From Halobaculum roseum (GTDB lineage: Archaea > Halobacteriota > Halobacteria > Halobacteriales > Haloferacaceae), in the NCBI RefSeq assembly GCF_019880245.1, contig NZ_CP082286.1, forward strand, positions 2,870,521-2,934,520: a DNA stretch of 64,000 bases, in the 5' to 3' direction. Every line of letters begins with the position of its first letter. Position 1 is the first letter of the stretch. Of this stretch, positions 29,801 to 38,239 are shown piece by piece. Below the pieces are notes generated by a model that was given only the letters and a program-made list of their open reading frames with translations, ran no database searches and was not told the DNA's origin. A program made the position numbers and the translations under genes.

Positions 29801-29853
29801 ATCAGTTCTGCTCTCCCATGCGATGATGTCCCATAATCAGGACTCGTCGGTAA

Positions 29854-31071
<1,218 letters not shown>

Positions 31072-31139
31072 CCGGCGGGGGTGCAATCGTTGCCACCCGC
31101 GTCACGGTTATGAGGCCCGCGCTGATAACCCTCGGTGAG

Positions 31140-31235
31140 ATGACGACGAGATCCGCGCCGACCGCCGTTCGCCCGGCGCCCGCGGAGCGCGTCGTCGCCC
31201 TTCTCGCCGGGGTCGCGGGTATCGTAGGGGCGTGA
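31140..31235 (+). CDS. Putative ilvB leader peptide, 31 aa
   Basis: ATG 31140 with GGTGAG directly before it. The peptide is MTTRSAPTAVRPAPAERV followed by a tail rich in Val, Leu, Ile and Ala (VALLAGVAGIVGA). Its stop codon forms the first bases of the loop of a perfect 6-bp hairpin (31227-31242). It lies in the 270-nt gap between leuA and ilvB. A control role like that of bacterial ilv leader peptides is inferred; a chance ORF is possible. Confidence 0.35.
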   Translation: MTTRSAPTAVRPAPAERVVALLAGVAGIVGA

Positions 31236-31242
31236 CCGCCCC
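31227..31242 (+). promoter_or_regulatory. Hairpin overlapping the leader ORF stop
   Basis: GGGGCG (31227-31232) pairs perfectly with CGCCCC (31237-31242) around the loop TGAC. The stop codon TGA occupies loop positions. A ribosome at the leader stop would prevent its formation. No U-tract follows. Confidence 0.4.
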
Positions 31243-31341
31243 CACAACACCCACCCCGACGCACGTACCGACCGAACCCGACCAGCGACCAGCGATCACC
31301 GACCGCGAACGAATGACACACACGGACGGAGGAACACGACG

Positions 31342-33168
31342 ATGAGCGAGCCAGCGACCCCCGACGCCGCGTCGCCCGAGGAGGGCGACGACGAGGGGCG
31401 AACCGACCGAGCGGAACAGCCGGAACAGACGGACGAGGAGGCCGCAGCAGCACGCGAGGACGCGGCGACGCGCGCACCGGGCAGCGGCGCGAACGCGGTC
31501 GTCGCCGCGCTCGAGGCCGCGGGCGTCGAGACCGCCTTCGGCGTGCAGGGCGGTGCGATCATGCCCGTGTACGACGCGCTCTCGGAGTCGTCCGTCCACC
31601 ACATCACGATGGCCCACGAGCAGGGGGCCGTCCACGCGGCCGACGCCTACGGCATCGTCCGCGGCGACCCGGGCGTCTGTCTGGCGACCTCGGGGCCGGG
31701 CGCGACGAACCTCGTCACGGGCATCGCCGACGCGTCGATGGACTCGGACGCGATGCTCGCGCTGACGGGGCAGGTGCCCTCGGACATGGTCGGCTCGGAC
31801 GCGTTCCAGGAGACAGACACCGTCGGCGTCACCGCGCCCATCACGAAGCACAACTACTTCGCCAGCGACTCCGACGAGGTCGGCCGCACGGTCGGCGAGG
31901 CGTTCGCGCTCGCGAACACCGGCCGCCCGGGACCGACCTTGGTCGACCTCCCGAAGGACGTGAGCTTCGGAGAGACCGACCGCCCGGTCGGCGAGCCGAC
32001 GGCGCCCGAGCGCGCGGTGCCCGACGACGAGGCCGACGAGGAGCAGGTCGAGGCGGCCGCACGCGCCATCGAGACGGCCGAGCGTCCCCTCTGCCTGTTC
32101 GGCGGCGGCGTGATCAAGGGCGACGCGACCGAGCAGGCCCGGGCGTTCGCACGCGAGTTCGGCATCCCGGTCGTGACGACGATGCCGGGCATCGGGAGCT
32201 TCCCCGAGGACGACGACCTCTGTCTCTCGTGGGCCGGCATGCACGGCACCGGCTACGCCAACATGGCGATCACCCACACCGACTGCCTGATCGCGGTGGG
32301 CACGCGCTTCGACGACCGCCTCACCGGCGGCGTCGACACCTTCGCCCCCGAGGCCGAGGTCGTCCACGTCGACATCGACCCCGCCGAGATCTCGAAGAAC
32401 GTCCACGCCGACTACCCGGTCGTCGGCGACGCGGGGACGGTGCTCGACCAGCTCGACGCCGCCATCGGCTACGGCGACGCCCCCGACACCGAGGCGTGGC
32501 GCGAGCAGTGCGCCGAGTGGCGCGAGGAGTACCCGATGGACTACGCCATCGACCCCGACGAGCCGGTGAAGCCGCAGTTCGTCGTCGAGGCGTTCGACGC
32601 CGCCACCGGCGACGACGCGTACGTCACCACCGGCGTCGGCCAACACCAGATGTGGGCCGCCCAGTACTGGACGTACCGCGAGCCGCGCACGTTCGTCTCC
32701 AGCCACGGGCTCGGAACGATGGGATACGGCCTGCCCGCCGCAGTCGGCGCGCGCGTCGCGGCCGACGACGACCGCGAGGTGATCAGCTTCGAGGGCGACG
32801 GCTCGTTCCTGATGACGATCCAGGAGCTGTCGGTCGCCGTCCGCGAGAACCTCGACATCACGGTCGTCGTGCTCAACAACGAGTACATCGGGATGGTCCG
32901 CCAGTGGCAGGACGCCTTCTTCGAGGGCAACCACATGGCCTCCCAGTACGACTGGATGCCGGAGTTCGACACGCTCGCGGAGGCGTTCGGCGCGAAGGGC
33001 TTCCGGATCGACGAGTACGACGACGTGGAGGCGGTCGTCGAGGAGGCGCTTGCCTACGACGGCCCCTCGGTCGTCGACGCCCACATCGACCCCGAGGAGA
33101 ACGTCTACCCGATGGTCGCCAGCGGCGCGGCGAACGGCCAGTTCGCGCTCGCGGAGGACCAACTATGA
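31342..33168 (+). CDS. ilvB: Acetolactate synthase, large (catalytic) subunit
   Basis: 608 aa with a ribosome-binding GGAGG at 31328-31332. An acidic, disordered N-terminal extension of about 48 residues precedes the three thiamine-diphosphate-enzyme domains. The catalytic Glu is E93 in MAHEQGAVHAADAYG. GRPGPTLVDLPKDV closes the first domain and FGGGVIKGD opens the central one. The ThDP motif starts near residue 484 (FEGDGSFLM through VVLNNEYIGM). It makes acetolactate or acetohydroxybutyrate from pyruvate, the first common step of valine and isoleucine synthesis. Its stop overlaps ilvN by 4 nt. Confidence 0.96.
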   Translation: MSEPATPDAASPEEGDDEGRTDRAEQPEQTDEEAAAAREDAATRAPGSGANAVVAALEAAGVETAFGVQGGAIMPVYDALSESSVHHITMAHEQGAVHAADAYGIVRGDPGVCLATSGPGATNLVTGIADASMDSDAMLALTGQVPSDMVGSDAFQETDTVGVTAPITKHNYFASDSDEVGRTVGEAFALANTGRPGPTLVDLPKDVSFGETDRPVGEPTAPERAVPDDEADEEQVEAAARAIETAERPLCLFGGGVIKGDATEQARAFAREFGIPVVTTMPGIGSFPEDDDLCLSWAGMHGTGYANMAITHTDCLIAVGTRFDDRLTGGVDTFAPEAEVVHVDIDPAEISKNVHADYPVVGDAGTVLDQLDAAIGYGDAPDTEAWREQCAEWREEYPMDYAIDPDEPVKPQFVVEAFDAATGDDAYVTTGVGQHQMWAAQYWTYREPRTFVSSHGLGTMGYGLPAAVGARVAADDDREVISFEGDGSFLMTIQELSVAVRENLDITVVVLNNEYIGMVRQWQDAFFEGNHMASQYDWMPEFDTLAEAFGAKGFRIDEYDDVEAVVEEALAYDGPSVVDAHIDPEENVYPMVASGAANGQFALAEDQL

Positions 33169-37263: not shown

Positions 37264-38239
37264 GGTCCCCGAGATCGCGGTGATCGAGGGCGACGGCATC
37301 GGCCGCGAGGTCGTCCCCGCGGCCGTCGAGGTGCTGGACGCCGTCGGCGACTACGCGTTCGCCGAGGCCGAGGCGGGCGACGCGACGCTCGACGAGACGG
37401 GCGAGGCGCTGCCCGCGGAGACGTACGAACTCGCCGCCAGCGCGGATGCGACGCTGTTCGGTGCCGCGGGCGAGTCCGCCGCGGACGTGATCCTCCCGCT
37501 TCGCGAGGCCGTCGGCTCGTTCGTCAACGTCCGTCCCGCGCGGGCGTATCCCGGCGTCGACGCGCTGCGGCCGGAGACGGATCTGGTCTTCCTCCGGGAG
37601 AACACCGAGGGCGTGTACGCCGGTCACGAGGACCGCCTCACCGACGACGTGTCGACGCTGACGCGCGTCGTCACCGAGACCGCCTCACGGCGCCTCGGCG
37701 AATTCGCCTGCGAGTACGTCGGAGAGCGCGGGAAGGACGGCTTCACCGTCGCGCACAAGGCGAACGTGATGCGCGAGACCGACGGGCTGTTCCGCGACAC
37801 GGTGCTCGCGGAGGCGGAGGCCGCGGGCGTCGACGCCGACACCGTCCTCATGGACGCGTTCGCGACGCGGGTGTGTCTCGACCCCGAGCAGTTCGACGTG
37901 ATCGTCTGCCCCAACCTCGCGGGCGACGTGCTCTCGGATCTCGCGGCCGGTCTCGTTGGTGGACTCGGGCTGCTCCCCTCCGCGAACGTCGGCCCCGAGC
38001 GCGGACTGTTCGAGCCGGTCCACGGCACCGCGCCCGACATCGCGGGCGAGGGGGTCGCGAACCCGTCGGCGACGATCCTCTCGGCGGCGATGCTCGTCGA
38101 GTCGCTCGGCGACGACGACGCCGGCGCGCAGATTCGGTCGGCCGTCGAGAGCGTCCTCTCGGACGGGCCACGAACGCCCGATCTGGGCGGCGAGGCGACG
38201 ACCCGCGAGGTGACCGACGCGGTGCTGGCCCGGCTCTGA
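37256..38239 (+). CDS. leuB: 3-isopropylmalate dehydrogenase
   Basis: 327 aa, beta-decarboxylating dehydrogenase family. [17 protein letters not shown] is the N-terminal motif, [10 protein letters not shown] and [14 protein letters not shown] carry the substrate arginines, AHKANVM the catalytic Lys, and [16 protein letters not shown] the metal Asp residues; [12 protein letters not shown] ends the cofactor site. It oxidises 3-isopropylmalate to 2-oxoisocaproate, the last specific step of leucine synthesis. Last gene of the operon. Confidence 0.95.

Follow-up and report, generated by a model that had tools for sequence, protein, structure and literature searches.

In Escherichia coli, a short ORF of branched-chain amino acid (BCAA) codons accompanied by a hairpin likewise lies upstream of ilvB, in the ivbL-ilvBN arrangement. 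Stalling on a leader peptide requires ribosomes that run close behind RNA polymerase and a termination process that responds to RNA structure, both of which are debated for archaea. T-rich tracts and aCPSF1 are held responsible for termination in archaea. In the ilvBNC attenuator of Corynebacterium glutamicum, the control codons are CUU and GUA (PMC11857589), and in Haloferax transcription-translation coupling is supported by co-purification (PMC8576121). A preliminary description of the locus studied here held that leader-peptide control is not established for archaeal ilv operons and our literature search, conducted on open-licence papers, agrees with it, since no report of such control in archaea was retrieved.

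The locus belongs to a stretch of 64,000 nucleotides of Halobaculum DNA (the window), in which ilvB, encoding the large subunit of acetolactate synthase (31342..33168, plus strand), is followed by ilvN and ilvC. The 3' end of leuA is at 31071 and ilvB starts at 31342. The 31-codon ORF with a Val/Leu/Ile-rich end that had been noted upstream of ilvB is real in the window (leader ORF 1, 31140..31235, plus strand, 31 codons and a TGA, probably leaderless) and the same ORF end is found in relatives. Its translation is MTTRSAPTAVRPAPAERVVALLAGVAGIVGA and its final codons are GGT ATC GTA GGG GCG TGA. The Ile/Val/Leu-rich tail VVALLAGVAGIV (31191..31226, plus strand), recognised by a positional gradient and by codon usage, is written GTC GTC GCC CTT CTC GCC GGG GTC GCG GGT ATC GTA. 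The stop codon (31233-31235) was said to lie in the loop of a 6-bp G+C hairpin, and both the arms and the UGAC loop are indeed found (GGGGCG-UGAC-CGCCCC, 31227..31242, plus strand): GGGGCG at 31227-31232 and CGCCCC at 31237-31242 enclose the stop codon plus one base, with a possible outer pairing of G31224-U31225 with A31244-C31245.

Conservation was followed in 67 haloarchaeal ilvB loci, obtained in one scan of a genome collection, and in 99 genomes of the genus, family and order, 94 of which have ilvB orthologues; upstream regions of further Halobacteriales families were added to this set. All named haloarchaeal ilvB loci that include upstream DNA have the leader (one locus, L032, cut at a contig end, stands outside the count), and leader and hairpin are also present in nearly all of the loci added from the other families. 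In nearly all cases, the leader ends in [I/V/L] V G [A/V] and at most one extra residue before the stop, as in MTSHDAHAVRSTPDAGASDAAVGAIRSLIIVGA of Haloferax, MRRHTTAAARASVPGAVAPIIVGV of Halorubrum and MTVRASLSARVRTVDTSALAPIRIVGAS of Natrinema. A haloarchaeal genome contains the pattern ATYGTAGGGG...CCCC about once, at ilvB, and the reversed-pattern control mostly gave 0. No recognisable leader was found at ilvB in L162 or in the early-branching lineages L169 and L170, and the other classes of the phylum gave only scattered pattern matches without an in-frame stop, so the element looks confined to Halobacteriales. It is one and the same element upstream of ilvB across most families of this order: the frame, the stop, the Ile/Val/Leu tail and the hairpin were checked across haloarchaea and all are kept. 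What is strictly conserved is nevertheless narrower than first described, as the signature comprises the hairpin and the one to three codons that end the tail, and not the whole Val/Leu-rich tail of Halobaculum; in the window, the conserved control region within this tail is the last Ile-Val pair (31221-31226, plus strand). Upstream of trpC (24 loci) and hisG (22 loci) of related genomes, a scan that took in only ORFs with a TATA-like box found no comparable conserved leaderless ORF. Such leaders are thus not general to haloarchaeal amino-acid operons, as far as tested.

A different leader precedes ilvB in one genus (L155, genome G018, about bases 470-560). It is leuA-like, encodes MPHIEGTSVVPADRVLPRAA (...ADRVLPRAA), contains the rare Val-Leu codons GTT CTT and has its stop in a perfect 6-bp hairpin (GAGCCG-CCUGA-CGGCUC), and it seems to have arrived at the same layout independently.

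Codon and position statistics on 76 non-redundant leaders, thinned for similarity, argue that the ORF is translated. The combined share of Ile, Val and Leu is 0.04-0.19 at positions -16 to -10 and 0.26-0.42 at -9 to -4, and it reaches 51, 61 and 99% at the last three positions, with no similar rise in the remaining two frames of the leader DNA. The stop is TAG in 53 leaders, TAA in 14 and TGA in 9, an interchangeability that is the mark of a translated ORF. The residue preceding a fixed GTA is Ile in 72 leaders, Val in two, Leu in one and Phe in one, and the codons seen there are ATT, ATC, GTC, GTA and CTC; the use of several codons for Ile, Val or Leu before GTA places the constraint on the products of the operon, and a constraint at the level of bases cannot account for it. 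GTA itself accounts for 17 of the 2113 Val codons in ilvB of the same genomes and is universal at the leader tail except in a diverged copy (L160, see below), while ATT accounts for 85 of 1016 Ile codons in ilvB vs 91 of 145 leader Ile codons. Leader tails therefore favour rare codons for Ile and Val, as control regions do. Codons for the operon's products are enriched near the hairpin and, with frame, ATG, promoter distance and stops all kept, the comparison points to a short translated ORF directly upstream of the operon.

The start of this ORF is marked by a TATA-like box, GGTTATGA (31106..31113, plus strand), about 30 nt before the leader ATG, from which transcription is predicted to start a few nucleotides from the ATG. 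Of the 76 non-redundant leaders, 62 have a TATA-like motif at -36..-22 from the leader ATG; at that distance, the motif is found before none of 54 second-ORF starts and before 1 of 76 ilvB starts. The leader mRNA is thus probably leaderless, as are most protein-coding transcripts of Haloferax (72%, PMC4983044).

In the window, the fold of the whole leader retains the hairpin with a stability only slightly higher than that of shuffles (z -1.26), so that folding energy by itself is no proof of the hairpin; conservation supplies it. When pairs are counted in a hand-anchored register, which favours the hairpin and leaves the ORF statistics untouched, the core four base pairs are present in 75 of 76 leaders. 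In 75 of the 76, the arms enclose the entire stop codon, in 74 they are 5-9 nt apart, and they hold a constant phase with the ORF; L151 and L152 have the stop 3' of the core arms. Because the 5' arm, GTAGGGG, is almost invariant, most pairs are uninformative alone and covariation support comes from few events. Changes in both arms keep the pairing in L054 and L056 (GTAGGGC...GCCCTAC, that is GGGC/GCCC), both arms have also changed in L160, where a GGGGUU/AACCCC hairpin encloses the stop, and the AT-rich L167 and L168 (leader peptides MKAVVRTKEGLFVSCAAVQVFVGA and MKAVVRTKNGLFVSCAAVQVSVGA) have altered arms and a kept hairpin. L160 is the second ilvB copy (a paralogue) of genome G035, with its own diverged leader and a peptide ending in AAVVAIVAIIGVHA. 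RNAalifold applied to a MAFFT alignment returned no pairs; loop lengths differ between leaders and MAFFT puts the gaps across the stop codon from where they belong. A single hairpin stands out as conserved in the 76 leaders, and no conserved antiterminator was seen beside it in the hand-anchored pair count.

Past the hairpin, most genera have a T/pyrimidine tract at a fixed distance. G makes up 2% of the first 16 nt beyond the hairpin arm vs 24% farther on, T reaches 46% at +12..+14 after the hairpin (the maximum of 2000 shuffles is 27%), and TTC occurs in the tract of 58 of 76 leaders vs about 16 expected. Intergenic termination sites in Haloferax show a T stretch with a TC dinucleotide, many have upstream hairpins, and one tested hairpin gave 59% termination (PMC7237163); the tract fits a site of pausing or termination 10-20 nt past the hairpin. 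In Halobaculum, the genus of the window, the site is occupied by a G-poor and C/A-rich stretch that is poor in T (31243..31262, plus strand; the sequence 3' of the hairpin is CCACAACACCCACCCCGACG). As the T tract is missing there and TTC is missing in 18 of the 76 leaders, termination may not be the outcome everywhere. The window contains no bacterial-type terminator, a scan for sigma-70 promoters and bacterial terminators being empty.

A second ORF (leader ORF 2, MTHTDGGTRR, 31313..31345, plus strand) ends in a TGA that overlaps the ilvB start as ATGA. An ATG open up to this overlap exists in 60 of 84 non-redundant spacers vs about 12 in dinucleotide shuffles, and 70 of the 91 spacer ATGs are in the ORF 2 frame, other ATGs being rare in the spacer. 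ORF 2 is missing in a quarter to a third of the leaders, and its amino-acid composition follows from the C/A-rich spacer alone and is hence no evidence. In most tested Haloferax pairs, ATGA overlaps impose strict coupling by termination-reinitiation (PMC6728339); the overlap is the same here, but the upstream partner in these pairs is an ordinary gene whereas it is a leader ORF of 6-50 codons in the ilvB operons.

What sequence comparison finds conserved is thus the promoter, the ORF with its codons and stop position, the hairpin, the tract behind it and the coupled ORF 2. We propose, with a probability of about 0.6, that the element acts as a ribosome-mediated sensor of branched-chain aminoacyl-tRNAs, controlling ilvB and the genes behind it by attenuation at the hairpin. 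Transcription would begin at or near the leader ATG, and the first ribosome would load onto the leaderless message behind RNA polymerase. With charged Ile-, Val- and Leu-tRNAs, it would reach the stop codon and depart, leaving the GUAGGGG arm to pair with the CCCCUAC-type arm, and the hairpin so formed would cause RNA polymerase to pause, or to end transcription, in the pyrimidine tract that follows 10-20 nt later. If charged tRNAs are scarce, the ribosome would stall at the rare Ile/Val codons (ATT/ATC GTA), which adjoin the 5' arm, and hold this arm in its mRNA channel, so that the polymerase reads through; downstream ribosomes would then start at ORF 2 and pass to ilvB at the ATGA overlap. 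A ribosome whose A site holds the final Ile or Val codon would cover the 5' arm of the hairpin. This footprint geometry would account for control codons that lie against the arm and for a strict constraint that ends a few codons upstream. A ribosome waiting at the stop would cover the hairpin as well, and the model therefore needs fast release. The sensor part, in which BCAA codons would be read by a translating ribosome and tied to the hairpin, is well supported by the comparison. The effector part we infer to be termination, pausing or control of reinitiation; translation, stalling, a transcriptional outcome and a response to amino acids are all predicted from the conserved features.

The leader-peptide layout of the preliminary description is supported, with corrections: the kept frame, tail and hairpin and the rare Ile/Val codons agree with it and suggest regulation, but a single hairpin is conserved and no terminator/antiterminator pair. 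It was also incomplete, as the second, coupled ORF, the leaderless start and the tract after the hairpin belong to the element.

The same sensor could act on translation instead. Ribosomes finishing or stalling on ORF 1 would set initiation at ORF 2 and hence, through the ATGA, at ilvB, and the hairpin would block or recycle ribosomes rather than RNA polymerase. The excess of stop-overlapping second ORFs (60 spacers against some 12 expected) with few other spacer ATGs, the strict termination-reinitiation at ATGA in most of the Haloferax pairs tested (PMC6728339) and the lack of a T tract in Halobaculum would all suit this possibility. We consider it less likely, however, because a quarter to a third of the leaders have no ORF 2 and because most genera keep the tract at a constant distance from the hairpin, which points to RNA polymerase. 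An arrest peptide, whose I-V-G-A/V end would stall the ribosome at the stop in response to some ligand, be it a free amino acid or not, in the manner of TnaC and tryptophan, would account for a C-terminal motif kept beside the stop codon in nearly all leaders. It is nonetheless improbable: about 45% of the leaders have an extra, unconserved residue before the stop, so that the distance from motif to stop is not fixed, the G-A/V is simply a product of the GGGG arm, and Val may be preceded by I, V or L.

The element could also be read as DNA, with GTAGGGG-N-CCCCTAC a palindromic transcription-factor site downstream of the promoter and the ORF incidental to it. That an inverted repeat stands just 3' of the promoter in one copy per genome is what an operator would predict, but the spacing of the half-sites varies over 5-9 nt while the repeat keeps its phase with the reading frame, a stop codon of one kind or another is never missing, and neither the upstream Ile/Val/Leu gradient nor the rare codons would be explained, all of which makes an operator very unlikely. 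Finally, a chance ORF in GC-rich DNA next to an incidental hairpin would be compatible with the unexceptional fold of the window taken alone (z -1.26); it is refuted by the conservation across leaders, and the trpC and hisG upstream regions of the same genomes have no comparable ORF, so that we give it practically no credit. Attenuation at the hairpin thus remains our preferred reading.

The neighbouring leuA shows a peculiarity of its own, the apparent lack of a usable in-frame start. In 63 of 63 haloarchaeal loci (L001-L073), a TATA-preceded leaderless ATG ORF, for example one starting MSHNDTEDSSGSPAGRVLPGH, precedes LeuA; in the window (29826-29900), the ORF MSHNQDSSVTSPAERVLPGHAECN, closed by a stop, runs into the conserved junction CGAGTTCTTCC. 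The LeuA frame (EFFQGTL...FDTTLRDGEQ) is offset by +1 at a G[AG]TCGAGTTCTTCC junction, which is GAACGRGTTCTTCC in Halobaculum and Halobonum and where the rare Val-Leu codons GTT CTT are found, and 50 of the 63 loci have no ATG, GTG or TTG nearby in the LeuA frame. This seems to be a candidate programmed +1 frameshift, needed in all 63 loci. Pfeiffer and Dyall-Smith described a problem with the start codon of Haloferax volcanii leuA2 (HVO_1510); in the part of their text that deals with it, which makes no mention of the ilvB leader, they counted an out-of-frame ATG combined with slippage among the options and speculated that translation occurs only when leucine is lacking (PMC8305020). Our 63-locus comparison favours the option of an out-of-frame ATG and slippage, across the order. 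As far as that part of their text describes it, HVO_1510 resembles the ilvB leader in being a neighbouring gene of the same pathway with an out-of-frame ATG ORF and possible slippage, and differs in that recoding would take place within the structural gene, whereas the leader ORF of ilvB stands apart from the gene and has a hairpin around its stop.

Taken together, the ilvB leader may be the first archaeal amino-acid attenuator, with a leaderless leader peptide, a stop within a pause or termination hairpin and an ilvB-coupled ORF in most Halobacteriales, and with a leucine-linked frameshift at leuA the cluster would read BCAA supply twice through the ribosome, a proposal to which we give about even odds. 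The element suggests a mode of control of branched-chain amino-acid synthesis in most haloarchaea and the possibility of regulatory leader peptides on leaderless transcripts. Being conserved and in single copy in the genetically tractable Haloferax, it offers a direct test of archaeal coupling and attenuation.

In database searches, Pfam gave no match to four leaders up to E 10, and Rfam none in the leader at E up to 1 and nothing above threshold in a search of the operon; in 14 loci of other genera, no Rfam hit reached the gathering score. Elsewhere in the window, on the minus strand at 37275-37322, Rfam reported a sub-threshold Guanidine-II riboswitch match (23.1 bits vs a gathering score of 32, E 0.47), which is probably due to chance.

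The element would thus work like a bacterial attenuator, yet it fits no Pfam or Rfam family tested. Unlike bacterial attenuators, it lies in an archaeal host, its leader ORF is predicted to be leaderless, it has one conserved hairpin with the stop in the loop instead of terminator and antiterminator alternatives, a T/pyrimidine tract takes the place of the bacterial U-run, and a second ORF is coupled to ilvB. The closest likeness is to bacterial amino-acid attenuators such as E. coli ivbL-ilvBN and the ilvBNC attenuator of C. glutamicum, with a short ORF upstream of ilvB, BCAA control codons and an adjacent RNA hairpin, the codons being ATT/ATC and GUA in the haloarchaeal leader and CUU and GUA in C. 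glutamicum.
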